Under the pieces are notes generated by a model that saw only the letters and a list, made by a program, of their open reading frames with translations, made no database searches and had not been told where the DNA came from. A stretch of 50,813 nt of DNA from a virus. Both the position numbers and the translations under genes were made by a program. The stretch is taken from positions 1 to 50,813 of the IMG/VR virus record IMGVR_UViG_3300033149_004350; one strand, given 5' to 3'. Position 1 is the first letter of the stretch; every line of letters starts with the position of its first letter. Positions 1,724 through 50,813 of the stretch are shown here, piece after piece.

Positions 1724-3306
1724 AAGATTTAAATGTTTTAGTAAAATCAACTATTCAAGAAAGATTAGTTGATTCTGTTGAAAATGTTTTTGATGTTTCT
1801 AAAAGATGCATGGAAGAACTTAATGTAGATCTATATGATAATCAAATTGAAATAGTTGAAAATGTTTGTGATTTAGATGAGCAATATTTAGTAATACTCG
1901 AAAGCAGAGGAGGCGGCAAAACTTTTAGTGTTGCTGTCGGACTTATTTTATTAGCATTAGATATACCTAATTTTAATATCGGGGTATTTGCTCCGAAAGA
2001 AGGACAATCTACAAGACTTTTGAAAGAAGTATCAAAAATTTTAAAAGATTCAAAAGTAAAAAATAAAATAAATTGGAATAAATCTTCTTCTTTAAAAATA
2101 GTTTTTAAAAATGAAAGTGCAATTATGGCTTTTTCAGGTTCAGTTACTGCAAATATAGAAGGTCCACATTTTCATGTTATTGTTATTGATGAAGCACATA
2201 AAGTAGCAGATCTTTCTATTTCACAAAAAATATTACCAATGCTTGGATCGTTTTCTTCAATTAAAATTATTAAATTAGGTGTTTCGTTATATAAAAATCA
2301 TTTTCATAAAAGTTTTAAAGATCCAAAATATAAAAAACTTTTTAAAACTTGGACACAATGTCCCCTTCTTTTAAATGCAGGTTCTATAAATGTTAATGGA
2401 GAAGAATATTCTAAGTATATTGTGGATATAATGCCTTTAAAGAAGAAAATAGAATATTTTCCAAATAATCCAGAATTACATTATGAAGGCGATATAGATG
2501 AAAGCGATTTTGAGACTCAATATGAATTAAAATGGATAGATGCGATTGATTTATTTTTAAATGAAGACGATCAAAAATTTTTAATAGGAGAACATACAAT
2601 TTTAGAAAAAGGAAATGATAGCGATGAATATTATTTTGGATTAGATACTGCACCGGGTTCATTGGTAGGAAGTGTTAAAACAGATTATACATCTCTTTCA
2701 ATTTGGAGAAAAGTTAATGGCATTAAAGAAAAAGTAAAAGCTTATGAGTGGCAAGGAGATCCTTTAAATCAAATTGAAGAAATTTTTTCAATTGTTCATC
2801 CTATTGATGGATTATTTAAATGTAAGTTTGGAATTGTAGAATATACTAATTTAGGAATTGCAATTTTAGAATTAATGAAAAAAGAAAAAGTTCCTTGTGC
2901 TGGGATTTTAGCAAATCAAAGAGAAAAAAATTCAGGAAAGAATTATAAAAATGCAATGTTTTATCATTTTAGATTTGAATTAAGAGCGAATAGAATTAAA
3001 TTTCCTGATTTAGATACTATAGAAAATAATTTTATAATGAATAAACATCTTAGACAATGGTGTGCTATAGAAGAAAAAATAAATCCTTATAGTATAAATA
3101 ATAGAATAGAAGCACCAAAAAGTGTAAAAGATTCAGAACAAATTCATGATGATGGTTGTATTTCAGATGTATGTGCAGTATTTTGTTCTGATAAGTCAGA
3201 TAGTTTTCCAAAAAGCAAAAGGGCTGCATATAAAATTCCAAGTTTAAAGACAGGACCGTCACTAATTTCAAGATTAAATCCTTCAAATAAAGGAAAATAT
3301 TTATGA
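1720..3306 (+). CDS. terL: Terminase large subunit (DNA packaging ATPase/nuclease)
   Basis: The 528-residue packaging motor subunit pumps DNA into the procapsid through the portal and cuts the concatemer. The N-terminal ATPase shows a Walker A motif SRGGGKT (residues 62-68) and a Walker B strand ending VIVIDEAHK, with Asp157 and Glu158. The C-terminal RNase H-like nuclease has Asp309 in YYFGLDTAPGS, Glu374 in GIVEYTNLG, and acidic residues Asp477/Asp478 and Asp483 in HDDGCISD. Length is normal for the family. The start overlaps the upstream 55-aa gene. Its place just before the portal gene is the standard order. The family call is confident; the packaging strategy (headful or cos) cannot be told from this. 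Confidence 0.95.
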   Translation: MKDLNVLVKSTIQERLVDSVENVFDVSKRCMEELNVDLYDNQIEIVENVCDLDEQYLVILESRGGGKTFSVAVGLILLALDIPNFNIGVFAPKEGQSTRLLKEVSKILKDSKVKNKINWNKSSSLKIVFKNESAIMAFSGSVTANIEGPHFHVIVIDEAHKVADLSISQKILPMLGSFSSIKIIKLGVSLYKNHFHKSFKDPKYKKLFKTWTQCPLLLNAGSINVNGEEYSKYIVDIMPLKKKIEYFPNNPELHYEGDIDESDFETQYELKWIDAIDLFLNEDDQKFLIGEHTILEKGNDSDEYYFGLDTAPGSLVGSVKTDYTSLSIWRKVNGIKEKVKAYEWQGDPLNQIEEIFSIVHPIDGLFKCKFGIVEYTNLGIAILELMKKEKVPCAGILANQREKNSGKNYKNAMFYHFRFELRANRIKFPDLDTIENNFIMNKHLRQWCAIEEKINPYSINNRIEAPKSVKDSEQIHDDGCISDVCAVFCSDKSDSFPKSKRAAYKIPSLKTGPSLISRLNPSNKGKYL

Positions 3307-3539
3307 AAAATACAATTGATAAAATAATTATTATTTATAGATATATAGAGCAATTTAAAAAGGAATTGAATGCTTCGATATTAAAAGTTAGAGAATTTGA
3401 TGATAATAGAAAAATTGCTCGAAATTTGTCAGAGAGTATAAGATTATTTGCCAACATAAATGATCTTTTAAAAGGAGCAATAGATGAAATTAAAAAAAGC
3501 AAAAGTTTTGAAAAATATCGAGAAGAAAATTTCTTCTAA
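3303..3539 (+). CDS. Small helical protein, 78 aa
   Basis: The ATG overlaps the terminase stop (ATGA). The product is helical, with an amphipathic N-terminus (IDKIIIIYRYIEQFKKEL) and a basic C-terminus. No family is recognised. Its last 56 bases overlap the next gene in another frame, an unusually long overlap for this genome. It sits between terminase and portal, where phages often carry small connector or accessory proteins; no function is assigned. Confidence 0.65.
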   Translation: MKNTIDKIIIIYRYIEQFKKELNASILKVREFDDNRKIARNLSESIRLFANINDLLKGAIDEIKKSKSFEKYREENFF

Positions 3540-3699
3540 TATAGAAGTTGGCGATTTTGTAAAGCATAAACTTAGTAAAGAAAGATTTATTATTATCAAA
3601 ATAAAAAATAATAAAGAAGGAAAGAAATATTTAGGAAGAGATTTGTTATATAAAGAAATATTTTTTTATCCTGAAGAAATTGAGAAAGAGGTGATTTGA
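3484..3699 (+). CDS. Small beta-rich (SH3/KOW-like) protein, 71 aa
   Basis: The start ATG at 3484 is the only methionine and follows AAAGGAG at 3471-3477, so I accept the 56-base overlap with the previous gene. After a basic N-terminus, residues about 22-45 read VGDFVKHKLSKERFIIIKI, the strand pattern of a small SH3/KOW-like barrel. The stop lies one base before the portal ATG. A similar strand pattern (IGDRVRF, IGDEVSF) recurs in the polyprotein at 5793-9053. Exact function is unknown. Confidence 0.65.
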   Translation: MKLKKAKVLKNIEKKISSNIEVGDFVKHKLSKERFIIIKIKNNKEGKKYLGRDLLYKEIFFYPEEIEKEVI

Positions 3700-24661: not shown

Positions 24662-26239
24662 ATGCCAGATTTTACATCTTCACCAATTGAATCAGATGTT
24701 TATTTTAGAATATCTGATGTTCAAATTCCAAGTGTTCCTGCTGGAGTTTTTATTCCAGTTTTGATTGGCTTAGGCTCAAAAACATTACAAACTGTTGAAC
24801 AATTAACAAAAGGAGGCACTGATAGCAAGGATGGTCCATTATCTAATACTCCAGTAATTAATGTTCTTTCTATTATTGATAGCCTAGGGAATTCTTATAC
24901 TGAAGGAACTGAATTTACTTTTGCAAAAACCGGAGCAGATGCTTGGAAAATAGTTTGGGTTAATGGACAACCACAGCCTACAAATGGTTCAAAATATTCT
25001 GTAACTTATGAATATGAAAAAACTACTACAGATTATGATCCAATAATCTTAAGTTCGACTCAAGACGTTGTTACGCGTTTTGGTCCCCCACAAATTTCTA
25101 TTCTTTTGGATTCAGGAACAGCCACGTCTGGAACTGTTACAACTTTGGTTGATAATACAAAAACTTGGACAGTTAATGGATATGTAGGCAATTATGTAAA
25201 AATTATATCAGGAACTGGAGCAGGACAATCTAGAGTAATTATTTCTAATGATGCTACTTCACTTTCTGTTTCTGATTGGGGAACAATTCCAGATGCAACT
25301 TCTGTATATCAAATAACTGATATATCAGAAAATTCTATTTCTTTAGCAGCTCAAATTTTATATGAAAACACAGGAGGAAATGGATTTGTTTATTGTGTTC
25401 AATCTATAGATGATACTTCTACAGATTTTCAGGCTGCATTAGATAAAATGCAAGATAAAGATGGTGCATATGTTATTGTAATCTTAAAAGGAATGACATT
25501 GGGTGATCCATTAATAACTTCTCTTAAAACGCATGTAGATACTCAATCAACAACTTTAGGGAAACATGAAAGAATTGCTCTTATAGGAGGTCCAGTTTCT
25601 TTAACAGATTATCAAACAATATCTAGTATTGCTTCTGGAATAGCTGATTCAAGATTAGCTTTTATTGCTCCTTGTGAAGGAAAGAGATCGATTTCTGGAA
25701 CAGAATATTCATTTGATGGAAGTTATATTGCTGCGGCAATTGCAGGAATTATAACTAATCCAGTGTATGATGCAGCTGAACCAATTTCGGGAAAAACGAT
25801 TGTAGGATTTAATGATATTCCTAATTCTTTTTTACTTTCACAAATACGATATATGATTGGTTCGGGAGTTTTTCTTATAACAAAAGAAAGAGGAATTCCG
25901 GCGATTAATCATGCGTTATCAACTGATGTTTCTACTGTTGTAAATTCTGAAATTAAAATAACTAGAATAAAAGATTATATTATTGATCTTTTAAGAAGAA
26001 ATTTGAGATCAACATATATAAATGCTAGAAATTTAGGAACTGCAACTAGAGTTTCTATGAAAGCATTTATTAAATTTTTACTTGATGGAGCAGTAACAAG
26101 AAATATATTAACTGATTATCAAAATTTAGAAGTAATTCAAAATACTTCAGATCCCAGACAAATCGATGTAACATTTCAGGTGCGCCCAATCTGGGATATA
26201 AATTATATTTATGTAACATTTGGAGTTACATTTCCATAA
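24662..26239 (+). CDS. Contractile tail sheath protein
   Basis: 525 residues with a strong AAAAGGAGG site. The sheath contracts to drive the tube into the cell. The C-terminal domain shows the sheath pattern: RSTYINARNLGTATRVSMKA helices and the final RQIDVTFQVRPIWDINYIYV strand with TFGVTF. Between about 148 and 220 an inserted module DSGTATSGTVTTLVDNTK, later GTGAGQSRVIISND, is shared with fibre 39104 and is not part of the core sheath. A strand near 101 (NGQPQPTNGSKYSVTYEYE) recurs in baseplate protein 37252. The inserts make this sheath surface-decorated. Confidence 0.9.
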   Translation: MPDFTSSPIESDVYFRISDVQIPSVPAGVFIPVLIGLGSKTLQTVEQLTKGGTDSKDGPLSNTPVINVLSIIDSLGNSYTEGTEFTFAKTGADAWKIVWVNGQPQPTNGSKYSVTYEYEKTTTDYDPIILSSTQDVVTRFGPPQISILLDSGTATSGTVTTLVDNTKTWTVNGYVGNYVKIISGTGAGQSRVIISNDATSLSVSDWGTIPDATSVYQITDISENSISLAAQILYENTGGNGFVYCVQSIDDTSTDFQAALDKMQDKDGAYVIVILKGMTLGDPLITSLKTHVDTQSTTLGKHERIALIGGPVSLTDYQTISSIASGIADSRLAFIAPCEGKRSISGTEYSFDGSYIAAAIAGIITNPVYDAAEPISGKTIVGFNDIPNSFLLSQIRYMIGSGVFLITKERGIPAINHALSTDVSTVVNSEIKITRIKDYIIDLLRRNLRSTYINARNLGTATRVSMKAFIKFLLDGAVTRNILTDYQNLEVIQNTSDPRQIDVTFQVRPIWDINYIYVTFGVTFP

Positions 26240-37251: not shown

Positions 37252-38319
37252 ATGGGTGCAATAATTAGTTCAGGTTCAAATTCGATTTTCTATAAATTAG
37301 TAGAAAATACGTATGTTAAAGATATCTATGAACAGCAATGGAATGTTTTGCCTTATACTCCAGATAGAAAACAAACGTTTGTTGATTTTTATCCAGATCT
37401 TTGGTCAGATACTAGCGATGTATTTCTTAGAGTATTTTTGAATGAAACACAGATTGCTCGGGTTAAAATAGTAAATATTTTTGGTTTAATTTATTGTAAT
37501 ATTGACGTTCCATATAGAGAATTTGAAATAGTTGTAAAATCTGATGATTTGCTAACTATTTATAAAACATATAAATTTATTTCATTAAATTTGCATTTAT
37601 ATTATGAACTATTAGGTGAAAAGTTTAAAGATTTAAGAATAGAAAATGAAAAAATATTTGGAGATTTATATAATGAATCAGTTAGAGATGAAAAAATTTA
37701 TGATAATTTTGGTTCATATATTAGATTAATTAAAACGCCTGCGTTTGATTATGATGAATATAGAAGGTATGTTTTGGGTAATGATACTTTTATTGGAAAT
37801 TTTAAAGCTTCTTTATATGGATCTACTGAAAAAGGAATAAAAGAAGCAATTGGTTCAATAACAGAACAATATCCAACTATTGGAAGTCAAAGAGATAGAG
37901 TTGGTTGGAGATTAAAAGAAAATGAACTTTATAATCATGTATTAGATAGTAGTTTAGGAAATGGTTTTCCATTAATTCTTGATCCAAAATATAAAAGATT
38001 TGTTATTATTATTTATGTTAATAATTCAACAAGAAATATTACGAATGAAGAAATTTTAATGAAAGAACAAGATGGAACTAATTATTTGTTACATAATTAT
38101 TTAACTTCTACTATTGTTACAATTGCTGGTTATACAGAAAATATAAATTTTAGAGTGGATAGAACTAATGGTTCTATTTCTTGGGTCAGCGGACAGCCTC
38201 AACCAGTAGTTGGAAGTAAATATTATGTTAATTATTCTTATTACTTGAAAGAAATTTCAGAATTTGTAGCTAATAATATAAAACCAGCAAATATAGAATT
38301 TCAATTTGAATATTTATAA
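37252..38319 (+). CDS. Baseplate wedge/tail protein (gpI-like position)
   Basis: 355 residues after the J-like gene, where gpI-like wedge proteins sit. The N-terminal domain (WNVLPYTPDRKQTFVDFYPD) and a helical middle give way to a strand-rich C-terminus with GSISWVSGQPQPVVGSKYYV. The latter matches a strand in the sheath protein (WVNGQPQPTNGSKYSV). It is followed by the third exact copy of the 24-base element. Function is by context. Confidence 0.7.
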   Translation: MGAIISSGSNSIFYKLVENTYVKDIYEQQWNVLPYTPDRKQTFVDFYPDLWSDTSDVFLRVFLNETQIARVKIVNIFGLIYCNIDVPYREFEIVVKSDDLLTIYKTYKFISLNLHLYYELLGEKFKDLRIENEKIFGDLYNESVRDEKIYDNFGSYIRLIKTPAFDYDEYRRYVLGNDTFIGNFKASLYGSTEKGIKEAIGSITEQYPTIGSQRDRVGWRLKENELYNHVLDSSLGNGFPLILDPKYKRFVIIIYVNNSTRNITNEEILMKEQDGTNYLLHNYLTSTIVTIAGYTENINFRVDRTNGSISWVSGQPQPVVGSKYYVNYSYYLKEISEFVANNIKPANIEFQFEYL

Positions 38320-42222: not shown

Positions 42223-44580
42223 ATGGCAAGAATAGTAATAACTGAACGAGATATACAAGATTCTGCAATTATATCATCAAAAATAAAAATAGGTGCAGTT
42301 ATTAGAAATAAAATTGCAGAATTTAGACCTCATCAAAATGATCCAATAGATGATAAAGTTTATGTCGAGGCAGGAAAGATTTTAAGTTCAGATGCTAAAA
42401 AAACTATAACTTTTGGAGGAGGAAGTTCTCCCTCTTTTAATGTAATAACAGGAGGTGGAAATTCAAGAATCGATTTGCTTTGCATAAACGATTCGGGGAA
42501 TCTTGAAATTATTGAAGGAATTGAAGCCGGAGTGCCTACTATTCCAGAATATCCATCTAATAAAAGAGTTATAGCTGAAGTTACAATTGATGAATTAGTA
42601 ACTGTAACAATAACTGATTCTGATATAAATGATGTTAGAGATAGTTCTGGAATTTTAAGATCTAGTTTGCTTGATGTTCAAGAAGATGGAATAGATATAG
42701 TAACAGATCCTTCTGATATAAATTTTAAACATGGATTTGATATAACTAATGCTGGTTCTGGAGTAGCACAAGTTGATGTAGATGAAACAGAATTAAATCT
42801 TTATACAGAAGTTGTAAATGCTAGAGGAACTAAAGCCTCTTTAGATGAAAGATTAGATATTTCTTTAAATGAAGATGGAACTTTAAAAACCTCTTTAAGA
42901 ATAGATATTCAAGAAGATGGAATTGATGTAGTAGTAGATCCTTCTGATCTTAATTTTAGACATGGTTTAGATATAACAGATCTAGGCGGAGGAATAGCTG
43001 GAATCGATATAGACGAAGGAGAATTAAATTCGTCTTTAATTCCAAATACTCCTGCAGGAAATATTTCTTCTACAAATATTCAAGATGCAATAAATGAATT
43101 AGATAATGAAAAAGTAGCTAAAGCAGGAGATACGATATCGGGCAGTTTAACGATTAATACAGATCTTAATATAAAAGGAGATACTATATTAGGAGATGCT
43201 AATACAGATGTTACAAGCATTAGGGGTAAATTAACTTTAACCGATAATTCTGCTACTTATCCATTACAATTAGGTGTAGATACTAATCTTTATAGACAAG
43301 CAGCAGATATATTAAAAACAGATGATGATTTAATTGTTGGAGGTAATATTTCTGGAGATGGTTCAGGCATTACAAACATAGGTAGTTCTAGTTTAAATGA
43401 TGGTTCTGTTATCAGAAGTAAAATAAACATATTAAGGCCTCACGAACAAAATACTCCAGACGATACTGTATATGTAGAATCAGGAAGATTTATAAAATCT
43501 GATGGGACAAGCTCTATTGATTTTGCTGGAGGTAATAGTCCTTCGTTTAACGTAGTAACAGCTAATTCGAGAATAGACTTACTTTGTATAGATGATACAG
43601 GAACGCTTGTTATTATAGAAGGTATTCAAGCCGCAAGTCCTGTTTCTCCTGCGTATCCTATCGACAAACAGGTTATAGCTGAAGTTACAATTGATGAAAC
43701 TAGTGGAGTAGTTATTAATAATTCAGATATCAAGGATGTAAGAATGTTTTTAAATCTTGGAGGAGGATCAGGCAACGGGGGTATATTTAGAAGATATATT
43801 TATGTAGCTAGTGGTGGAGAAACTTTTGTAGATTTACCATTTGCATATACAACTGGTAATAATTCATTACAAGTATTTAGAGGTGATGGACTATTACAAA
43901 AAATAACAGATGATTATACAGAAACGTCATCTACACGTGTTACTTTTACGAGTGCATTAATTGCAAATGAAATAGTTCAATTTTTAGTTATAGTAACTCA
44001 ACCTACAACTAGATATGAACAATCTTTTACTAGTCAAACTAGTGTGACTGTAATTCATAATTTAGGAATAAAACCTTTAATTCAAATTGTAGATAATAGC
44101 AACCAAGTAATAATTCCTAATACAATAACACATGATAGTATAAATCAAGCGACAATTACTTTTTTATCTAGTCAAAGTGGAATTGTTATATGTAATGCGG
44201 GAACTTCGGGAAGAGCAGATTTAGTTAATGAATATAAAGCAGGTGTTGCTTTGAATACTTTTGAAATAGTTTATCAAACTACAACTGCAGATGAAGTAGC
44301 TAAAGCAAATGCTACTAATACTTCAAAAATTCCAGCTATTGGGATAACTATTACATCGGCTAGTATAGGCGAAAAAATAGATATTTTACAAGTTGGGCTT
44401 GTTTCTAATTCTGCTTGGAGTTGGACGCCTGGGGATAAAATTTATGTTAATACAGTTGACGGACAATTAACGAATACTGCTCCGGCTGGTAGTGGTAATG
44501 TTATTCAAAAAATTGGAATAGCAAAAAATGCGACAACTGTTTTATTTAATTTTGGATATGATTATATTGTATTAAGTTAG
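42223..44580 (+). CDS. Tail fibre/adhesin with internal duplication
   Basis: 785 residues; begins MARIVITERDIQDSAIISSK. A domain of about 120 residues is present twice (about 25-145 and 390-520): FRPHQNDPIDDKVYVEAGKI matches LRPHEQNTPDDTVYVESGRF. A 40-residue repeat also occurs (LDVQEDGIDIVTDPSD and IDIQEDGIDVVVDPSD). The end has a sandwich (ERYEQSFT-type, TSQTSVTVIHNLGIKPLIQI). Likely a multidomain fibre with tandem beta-structured repeats; no enzyme motif seen. Confidence 0.75.
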   Translation: MARIVITERDIQDSAIISSKIKIGAVIRNKIAEFRPHQNDPIDDKVYVEAGKILSSDAKKTITFGGGSSPSFNVITGGGNSRIDLLCINDSGNLEIIEGIEAGVPTIPEYPSNKRVIAEVTIDELVTVTITDSDINDVRDSSGILRSSLLDVQEDGIDIVTDPSDINFKHGFDITNAGSGVAQVDVDETELNLYTEVVNARGTKASLDERLDISLNEDGTLKTSLRIDIQEDGIDVVVDPSDLNFRHGLDITDLGGGIAGIDIDEGELNSSLIPNTPAGNISSTNIQDAINELDNEKVAKAGDTISGSLTINTDLNIKGDTILGDANTDVTSIRGKLTLTDNSATYPLQLGVDTNLYRQAADILKTDDDLIVGGNISGDGSGITNIGSSSLNDGSVIRSKINILRPHEQNTPDDTVYVESGRFIKSDGTSSIDFAGGNSPSFNVVTANSRIDLLCIDDTGTLVIIEGIQAASPVSPAYPIDKQVIAEVTIDETSGVVINNSDIKDVRMFLNLGGGSGNGGIFRRYIYVASGGETFVDLPFAYTTGNNSLQVFRGDGLLQKITDDYTETSSTRVTFTSALIANEIVQFLVIVTQPTTRYEQSFTSQTSVTVIHNLGIKPLIQIVDNSNQVIIPNTITHDSINQATITFLSSQSGIVICNAGTSGRADLVNEYKAGVALNTFEIVYQTTTADEVAKANATNTSKIPAIGITITSASIGEKIDILQVGLVSNSAWSWTPGDKIYVNTVDGQLTNTAPAGSGNVIQKIGIAKNATTVLFNFGYDYIVLS

Positions 44581-47157: not shown

Positions 47158-47328
47158 ATGACAGAAATAGTAAAAATAATACAATCGGTAGGATTTCCGG
47201 TGGCAGTAGCCATATATTTGTTATGGAAATACGAAAAACGATTAAAAGAATTATCAGATATTATGCAAGAAATGTCTAAAATATTGGCTATTATAAAAGA
47301 ATATGTAAAAAAAGCAAATGGTGATTAA
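47158..47328 (+). CDS. YvrJ-like small membrane protein (holin-like), 56 aa
   Basis: The product begins MTEIVKIIQSVGFPVAVAIY and continues LLWKYEKRLKELSDI. GFPVAVAIYLLWKYEKRL is close to the YvrJ family pattern, with one N-terminal TM and a charged tail. AAGGAAGGTAACGTTT precedes ATG. YvrJ-type peptides occur near phage lysis genes and are thought to act as holin-like proteins. It is the first gene after the fibres, consistent with a lysis-cluster role. Confidence 0.8.
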   Translation: MTEIVKIIQSVGFPVAVAIYLLWKYEKRLKELSDIMQEMSKILAIIKEYVKKANGD

Positions 47329-47658: not shown

Positions 47659-48522
47659 ATGAAAATTTTAAAATTAGTTTTATTATTTTTATTTTTATTT
47701 GAATTTAATATTTGTGCAATTGAAAAATATCAACCAATAAATCCAGAATTTAAGCTTTTAACTGCAAATATTAGATTAGAAATATATACTAGCGGTGAAG
47801 AAAATTTATTTAAGTATGAATCACCACATGGACATTGGTATATTCCTCAAGGATGGGGACATAAAGAAGAAATAATTATAGATTTAAGACGATTTAAAAT
47901 AGATTTAGGAATTATAAATTATTTTCCATTTTATTTTGCAGCAAATTATCAGACTTGGCCTTATATTCCATATGCAGATAGTTTACAACTTATTGATCAG
48001 GAATTTGGAATGATATTTCCGTTATATTTTAAATCACTAAATTTTAAATTTTCTGTTAAACCTCAAAGCTGGTCAGGCCATCAAATTACTTCTATCGATT
48101 ATGGTTTAATTTATCAATCTAATTTTGCTTTTGAAGATAAACAACATGATTATTACGTTTGGAATTTTTCTTTGTTATATCACCAAAATAGCTATAAATC
48201 GATGGTAAAATATTTAGATGGAGATACTGAGTGGACTGCAAGCAAAGGAATTTTTTTTGATTTTACTATTAATAGTAAGCCAATTGGAGGAGCAATTTAT
48301 GCGGGATATAGATTAGAATATAGATGGAATGATGATCCTACTCAACCACCTCTCGATAGAACATTTATAAAACATTCTTTATTTTTAGGAAGCATTACAA
48401 ATGTTTTTAGGGATTTAAGTTTAACTTATGAAGGAGATTGGGAATGGACCACAAATTATATAAGAATAGTTAGAGCTAAATTATTTTTAACATTAAGAAC
48501 TAATTTAATGAAGGGAGAATAA
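47659..48522 (+). CDS. Exported outer-membrane beta-barrel-like protein
   Basis: 287 residues with a clear signal peptide (MKILKLVLLFLFLFEFNICA, cleavage after ICA likely). The mature part is rich in aromatic and alternating polar/apolar strands (YFPFYFAANYQTWPYIPYAD, then FDFTINSKPIGGAIYAGYRL), as in outer-membrane barrels. AAAGGAGG lies in the previous gene. It may be a Lom-like protein that alters the host surface (superinfection exclusion) or a lysis-cluster envelope protein. The fold is inferred from pattern. Confidence 0.65.
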   Translation: MKILKLVLLFLFLFEFNICAIEKYQPINPEFKLLTANIRLEIYTSGEENLFKYESPHGHWYIPQGWGHKEEIIIDLRRFKIDLGIINYFPFYFAANYQTWPYIPYADSLQLIDQEFGMIFPLYFKSLNFKFSVKPQSWSGHQITSIDYGLIYQSNFAFEDKQHDYYVWNFSLLYHQNSYKSMVKYLDGDTEWTASKGIFFDFTINSKPIGGAIYAGYRLEYRWNDDPTQPPLDRTFIKHSLFLGSITNVFRDLSLTYEGDWEWTTNYIRIVRAKLFLTLRTNLMKGE

Positions 48523-49278: not shown

Positions 49279-50061
49279 ATGATTAATTTTATAAAGAAAT
49301 ATTATCAAAAATATAATTGGTTAATTATACTTATTTTATTTGTATACGGTGCTTATAAAACTTTGGAAAAACCAGAAGTTGAAGTTATAACAAAAACAGT
49401 TGTAAAAGAAAAAGTCATAAAGCAATCTACTAAAGAAATAGAAAAAGCAATTAAGAAAATTGTAAATAAAGAATTAGCAAAAAGTGTGAATGCAATAAAA
49501 AATGAAATGAAGAATGTCAAGACTAAAGAAAAAATAATTGAAATTGTAAAACCTTCAGGAGAGATAGAAAGAACTATAGAAAGAATAACTGAAGATCTTT
49601 CGAGAATTAAAGATGAGATTGCTACAAAAGAAGATACTACAATTACAACAAACGAAACAGAATCTACTACAACAAAAACAAAAGAAGAAACTACAGTAGA
49701 AACAAAAACTAGTTCAGAAACTATATCTAAAACAATTAAATCTAAGAATACAATTTTAGTTGGATATGATACTAAAAATCAAATTCCTGAAGCAGGAATT
49801 GAATTTGGAATATCAAAAGAAATTGGAATTTTAGGAATAATTAATTACGATAATAAAAATGAAAAAAATAAAATCGATATTAAAGCAGGAATATGTTATA
49901 ATTCTATTATTAGTATAATTGCAGATTATGGGATTTTGAATTCAACTCCAGAAGTTGGAATAGGATTTTCGTATTTTGATTTAAAAGTTTTAGGGTTTGT
50001 GAATTATGATATAAATAAAAAAAATATAGGTTATGGAATAAAAGTAGGATTTATATTTTAG
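49279..50061 (+). CDS. TM-coiled-coil-barrel protein, candidate one-piece spanin
   Basis: 260 residues in three parts. A TM near 13-25 (WLIILILFVYGAY) with a Lys-rich N-terminus suggests inner-membrane anchoring with the N-terminus inside. Residues about 30-155 form a helical and Thr-rich periplasmic stretch. About 157-260 is a strand domain with roughly eight amphipathic strands, ending GYGIKVGFIF with a terminal Phe like an outer-membrane barrel's assembly signal. One protein touching both membranes fits a spanin, but the barrel end is not the known u-spanin type. Inference from layout. Confidence 0.65.
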   Translation: MINFIKKYYQKYNWLIILILFVYGAYKTLEKPEVEVITKTVVKEKVIKQSTKEIEKAIKKIVNKELAKSVNAIKNEMKNVKTKEKIIEIVKPSGEIERTIERITEDLSRIKDEIATKEDTTITTNETESTTTKTKEETTVETKTSSETISKTIKSKNTILVGYDTKNQIPEAGIEFGISKEIGILGIINYDNKNEKNKIDIKAGICYNSIISIIADYGILNSTPEVGIGFSYFDLKVLGFVNYDINKKNIGYGIKVGFIF

Positions 50062-50071
50062 GGGGATTGTT

Positions 50072-50344
50072 ATGAAAAAAATATTTTATTTTTTCAAAAA
50101 ATATTTTAAACTTTTAGATAGATTTATTTATATGAAAATTGAAGATGTAATTTCTTTTAGAAATACATTAGTTTTAGTAACAGCATATTTTGTGTATGAA
50201 GCAATAAAAACAAAAAATGCAGCTATAGTGGGAATTGTTTTTGGTGGTTGGACTATAATATTAACATTTTATTTTTATCATAGACAAAAGTCTCAAAGCA
50301 ATGGATTTAAAACTTCGAACTATGATGAAATAAAAGGAGATTAA
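50072..50344 (+). CDS. Two-TM small protein, holin candidate
   Basis: 90 residues. Two TM segments are likely, about 31-45 (TLVLVTAYFVYEA) and 50-69 (AIVGIVFGGWTIILTFYFY), with a basic N-terminal helix and a charged, soluble C-terminus. A two-TM layout with charged ends just before the amidase fits a class II-type holin. AGGGGGA precedes ATG. It is the strongest holin candidate by position, more so than the gene at 14845. Confidence 0.7.
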   Translation: MKKIFYFFKKYFKLLDRFIYMKIEDVISFRNTLVLVTAYFVYEAIKTKNAAIVGIVFGGWTIILTFYFYHRQKSQSNGFKTSNYDEIKGD

Positions 50345-50350
50345 AAAAAA

Positions 50351-50813
50351 TTGAAATTTATTACTAATATAATTACTTGGTGGATTAATTTTTTTGAAAA
50401 TTTGATTATAGAATCTAAAACGAATAAAAGAATTGATAAAAAGAAGTTAGCAAAAGAAAAATTAGAAAAATATGGATTTTCTTTTGAGGATTCTGTATTT
50501 TGGAAAGGAATGGTTATTCATCATTCTGCTACAAAAGATTATGAACTTTCAGATTTTGAAAGTATAAAGAGATTTCATACTAGTTGGAGAGATTTAAAAA
50601 CAGGAACAATAATATCAGAAAACGAGGCTAAAAAAAGGATTGCTAAAGGTGAAAAAGGAATAGAAGAACCATGGTCAGATATTGCTTATCATATATTATT
50701 CGAAAGAGTTAAAGGTAAATATGTCTGCAAACCTGGAAGAAAATTATATAGATATGGAGCACATGCCGGTAATAAATTTTATAATCAAAATTATTTAGGA
50801 GTTTGCTTTGTAG
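50351..50813 (+). CDS. N-acetylmuramoyl-L-alanine amidase (PGRP/amidase_2), 3' end outside window
   Basis: TTG 50351 with AAAGGAG about 11 bases upstream is the likely start; the frame stays open to the right edge (154 residues visible). An aromatic amphipathic N-terminus (ITNIITWWINFFENLII) precedes the amidase: GMVIHHSATKD with a zinc His, then WSDIAYHILFERV, and GAHAGNKFYNQNYLGVCFV. These match the PGRP amidase fold, which cuts the link between glycan and peptide. It is the endolysin of the lysis cluster. The second part of the zinc site lies beyond the window. Confidence 0.9.
   Translation, partial: MKFITNIITWWINFFENLIIESKTNKRIDKKKLAKEKLEKYGFSFEDSVFWKGMVIHHSATKDYELSDFESIKRFHTSWRDLKTGTIISENEAKKRIAKGEKGIEEPWSDIAYHILFERVKGKYVCKPGRKLYRYGAHAGNKFYNQNYLGVCFV

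Follow-up and report, generated by a model that had tools for sequence, protein, structure and literature searches.

A candidate one-piece, spanin-like protein with a C-terminal beta domain in the lysis region of an environmental phage

It is proposed that a 260-residue protein encoded near the end of an environmental phage record is a one-piece, spanin-like lysis protein whose outer-membrane end would be a beta barrel; we regard this as the best single explanation of the gene and hold it tentatively, at slightly less than an even chance. The protein has a distinctive layout and a defined place in the gene order, and its plan recurs in related phages. From these we infer a membrane topology, insertion into the outer membrane and a bridging of the two membranes; a lysis function of this protein and its relatives is suggested on the basis of gene order.

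The window analysed here is the whole of IMG/VR virus record IMGVR_UViG_3300033149_004350 (50,813 bases, 28.6% GC). It carries genes for a contractile tail (sheath, baseplate J and fibres) and a terminase about 30% identical to gp1 of Bacillus phage G. Its TerL shares 38-48% identity with those of about 43 other environmental records, one short distant match aside, and because the longest record among these relatives exceeds 200 kb, the window is probably a piece of a larger phage. DUF4815 segments are repeated in three structural proteins of this phage, sheath included (24662-26239, 37252-38319 and 42223-44580). Scans of bacterial genomes with TerL, and with the family described below, returned no matches. 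The features of the region under study are as follows.

47158 to 47328, plus strand: YvrJ-family/PHROG holin, 56 aa, 2 kb upstream of the candidate (PF12841 above cut-off; phrog_4898 holin, E 2e-9)
47659 to 48522, plus strand: protein of 287 aa with a signal-peptide-like N-terminus and a long beta-rich body, candidate outer-membrane protein (sequence; alternation z 3.0)
49279 to 50061, plus strand: candidate one-piece spanin-like protein, 260 aa (open ATG frame and codon usage)
49315 to 49365, plus strand: its N-terminal hydrophobic segment, residues ~13-29 (sequence; helix 2-29 in a low-confidence model)
49561 to 49623, plus strand: its three-heptad coiled coil, residues 95-115, within the helical stretch 31-118 (heptad score)
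49633 to 49749, plus strand: its Thr-rich stretch, residues 119-157, 15 of 39 being Thr, predicted to be without structure (composition; low-confidence model)
49747 to 50058, plus strand: its C-terminal beta-rich domain, residues 157-260, ending in GYGIKVGFIF, a candidate outer-membrane beta domain (alternation test; low-confidence model)
50072 to 50344, plus strand: two-TM protein, 90 aa, candidate holin or antiholin (sequence)
50351 to 50813, plus strand: Amidase_2-like endolysin, cut by the contig end (PHROG 822 amidase, E 1.2e-5; Pfam PF01510 below cut-off)

Start and stop codons, a ribosome site and codon usage all mark the ORF at 49279-50061 as a real gene. It starts directly after the preceding gene, the 3' end of which its ribosome site overlaps, and its codon usage is gene-like (+0.29 per codon, compared with +0.26 to +0.43 in 15 neighbours), the other frames scoring no more than +0.01. 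The two-TM gene begins 10 bases after it and is followed by the amidase gene. The sequence-only reading had placed the candidate between upstream envelope genes and a downstream holin/amidase pair; the amidase is upheld by its PHROG match, the two-TM ORF has no family match and is only plausibly a holin, and of the envelope genes the beta-rich ORF at 47659-48522 is present, likewise with no family match and as a candidate only. For the 260-residue protein itself, Pfam, PHROGs, NCBIfam, PDB sequences and tblastn against known phages gave no convincing match, only coiled-coil cross-matches, and viral contigs scanned directly with this protein, the amidase and the baseplate protein contained zero relatives.

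The protein begins with a charged N-terminus ahead of its single hydrophobic segment, continues with a charged, Lys/Glu/Ile-rich and predicted helical stretch (residues 31-118) in which the heptad score of the coiled coil is reached by none of 500 shuffles, and passes through the Thr-rich stretch into the C-terminal domain. Both the N-terminal TM and the helical and Thr-rich middle region of the sequence-only reading are thereby recovered, the membrane topology as a prediction. The combined reach of an 86-residue helix and 39 residues in extended form could be about 20-25 nm, which would suffice to cross a periplasm. In u-spanins an N-terminal lipobox marks the outer-membrane end and a C-terminal TM the inner-membrane end (PMC6139136). 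The window protein resembles the unimolecular, T1 gp11-type spanin in being one protein proposed to link two membranes, in its lysis-region gene and, in its relatives, in a beta-rich periplasmic part, but its predicted inner-membrane end is N-terminal, and a C-terminal beta domain is the candidate for its outer-membrane end. There is no Cys near the end of its hydrophobic segment and no hydrophobic helix in its beta-rich C-terminus; because lipobox and C-terminal TM are both absent, it is not filed as a u-spanin.

The predicted hydrophobic segment followed by a coiled coil, at a lysis-cluster position, is instead the plan of an Rz/Rz1-type i-spanin. The protein could therefore be an ordinary i-spanin, with a beta domain that stays periplasmic and binds a separate o-spanin encoded elsewhere or past the contig end; since the contig stops at 50813 within the amidase gene, such a gene could lie just beyond, and one family member has, over its TM region, a very weak match (E 0.04) to a profile of Rz-like spanins. 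A lipobox scan of the coding strand over 34-50.8 kb of the window and over nine related loci, however, gave no candidate o-spanin, and no lipoprotein gene overlaps or follows the window gene or its counterparts in those loci, which argues for a one-piece system. The extra C-terminal domain of 100 residues, with its Phe beta-signal, is moreover foreign to i-spanins, and the linker of the relatives is beta-rich in place of coiled coil. We consider an i-spanin unlikely. An OMP has been suggested as a possible o-spanin (Kongari 2018; PMC6139136).

The proposed outer-membrane end, residues 157-260, closes on a terminal Phe, and hydrophobic residues alternate along its last odd positions; it has the terminal aromatic and alternating hydrophobics of a C-terminal beta-signal, the family counterpart being ..LFLKVRF. 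Hydrophobic alternation over the domain beats shuffles modestly (P ~0.025), a signal that is not specific to membrane barrels because 7 of 33 other window proteins taken as controls also reach z >= 2. The strand domain of the sequence-only reading is thus retained as a beta-rich region ending in Phe, its alternation as a mark of barrels is not. The AlphaFold model of the protein as a single sequence is of low confidence (pLDDT 38), with nine short strands between residues 158 and 258; at pLDDT 29-45 these neither confirm nor refute an eight-strand barrel, which is unproven in the window protein, and a Foldseek search with this model was uninformative.

A family of like architecture was found by scanning the records of the terminase clade (TerL 38-48% identical), with G002/G008 and G003 recognised by architecture, G035, G039 and G016 by profile and L101-L107 by scan (the L101 gene at 3001-3546), in ten distinct loci altogether. 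Each member has a single TM at the N-terminus, a Thr/beta linker and a C-terminal domain whose closing motif is VRF, VRI, LRF or VRL; hydrophobic alternation in the C-domain beats shuffles in most of them. In nine of the ten loci the family gene lies directly after a two-TM gene and overlaps it slightly, its start falling within the 3' end of that gene, the exception being G016, where an HNH-like ORF, not a two-TM gene, stands just upstream. The family is under purifying selection, pN being far below pS in all 15 pairs compared. A more diverged copy, whose match exceeds the range of shuffled controls, is found in G013 amid replication and metabolism genes in another part of the genome. Three of the loci (G002, G003 and G035) have a DUF5675 gene, a candidate cell-wall enzyme, directly 3' of the two-TM and TM-beta pair (L029 1265-1729, L033 17366-17830 and L098 908-1372).

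Compared by profile, the window protein and the family score 16, inside the shuffled range of 10-18, and homology is therefore not claimed; the two are linked by shared clade, place and plan. The two-TM proteins of the window and of the family loci likewise show no profile similarity, and the gene order differs, the TM-beta gene preceding the two-TM gene in the window and following it in the family loci; the two-TM gene of the window is a counterpart by gene order. The one-piece, membrane-bridging lysis protein of the sequence-only reading gains support from the recurrence of the plan beside a two-TM gene with no lipoprotein gene near, and from the weak resemblance of the family's C-terminal fold to transmembrane barrels; the relatives are modelled with six strands, against the eight that it expected.

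Several other proteins in the related phages were noted. A weak match in G041 was rejected as a family member, being a charged low-complexity protein; in the same genome a Hint-type intein-like stretch (CFKAGTLVLTSKGF...) seems to split a structural protein (L094 2-1440). Patatin-like phospholipase genes, possibly for a membrane-active factor, occur at L012 17380-18264 (G001) and L122 16212-17117 (G027), one of the two adjoining a two-TM ORF, and collagen-like repeat proteins with a signal peptide and a beta-rich C-terminal part are encoded at L012 12146-13411 (G001) and L036 8244-8759 (G003).

An AlphaFold model of the family, built with nine sequences, had pLDDT 73 overall and 83-91 across the last 80 residues. 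In this model the C-terminus is a six-strand meander, not the expected eight strands, and the linker is beta-rich and not a coiled coil. Designed transmembrane barrels held ranks 1, 2 and 4 in a Foldseek search of the model against the PDB, and Omp33, OmpU and a type 9 translocon chain were among the other high-ranking entries; all these matches are weak, the best E being 0.02 and the TM-scores under 0.4, and the predicted C-terminal fold is weakly nearer to transmembrane barrels than to other PDB shapes. Foldseek pointed to a protein of Vibrio phage pVco-5, which was set aside, since a 211-aa gene of that phage, presumed to correspond to the BFVD entry, has a different layout. To our knowledge, every single-chain outer-membrane barrel has more than six strands; since six make no known monomeric barrel of this kind, a barrel shared across subunits, as in trimeric autotransporters, or the recruitment of a linker hairpin is possible. 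YadA is an example in which each chain adds a few strands, following a coiled coil, to a common barrel. The amphipathic beta meander with a C-terminal Phe is like that of OmpA/OmpX-like barrels and YadA-like anchors, from which our proteins differ in the attached N-terminal inner-membrane segment, in the six strands predicted for the relatives and in showing no sequence match.

The same data bear on a reading in which the beta domain is soluble and sits on an inner-membrane-anchored protein with another late role, for example as a regulator of lysis timing, a peptidoglycan factor or a factor in virion assembly. The uninformative single-sequence model, the weak Foldseek scores, the passing of the alternation test by other beta-rich window proteins and the position of the family gene, which in most loci is not adjacent to the endolysin gene, would all fit such a protein, whereas the nearest structures to the family model are mostly transmembrane barrels and the C-terminal beta-signal is kept throughout the family. 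We judge a soluble domain to be improbable, to about the same degree as an i-spanin.

The N-terminal segment admits a further alternative, in which it is cleaved off as a signal peptide, leaving as mature product an outer-membrane protein of the phage whose coiled coil lies in the periplasm and which serves a non-lytic function such as superinfection exclusion or envelope change. Signal peptidase could cut at a VYG-A junction past the hydrophobic stretch, and the window holds a second candidate outer-membrane ORF at 47659-48522, itself a hint of a diderm host. Against this, the N-termini ahead of the hydrophobic segment are long and charged (about 13-20 residues) in the window protein and the family alike, and Lys/Arg follow soon after it, which fits a signal anchor better and makes an anchor more likely than a cleavable peptide; the location between structural genes and amidase also suits a late lysis role. 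This is the least probable of the alternatives weighed here.

Under the favoured one-piece spanin reading, anchoring would be reversed relative to a u-spanin, with the N-terminus in the inner membrane. The linker of about 128 residues, helical or coiled-coil and then Thr-rich, would span periplasm and peptidoglycan, and the small C-terminal beta domain with its Phe beta-signal would insert in the outer membrane, where it would form a barrel by itself or contribute to one shared among several subunits. After holin triggering and cleavage of the peptidoglycan by the amidase, copies of the protein may be laterally freed, and the freed copies may cluster or collapse via the coiled coil and so pull the inner and outer membranes together. 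Among the papers covered by our literature search, none describes a barrel-ended one-piece spanin.

If this reading is true, a barrel-anchored type of spanin would escape current screens, which require a lipobox, a TM or both (PMC6139136, PMC12596118); to be retained in a 2025 survey, for instance, a spanin had to show TM or lipobox features (PMC12596118). Such a type would explain part of the 'spanin-less' phages, which make up about one seventh of those in Kongari 2018, where a recognised spanin is absent in 91 of 677 (PMC6139136). The conserved pair of a two-TM gene and a TM-beta gene offers a concrete template for searches, and membranes would in these phages be bridged via an integral beta domain in place of a lipid anchor.
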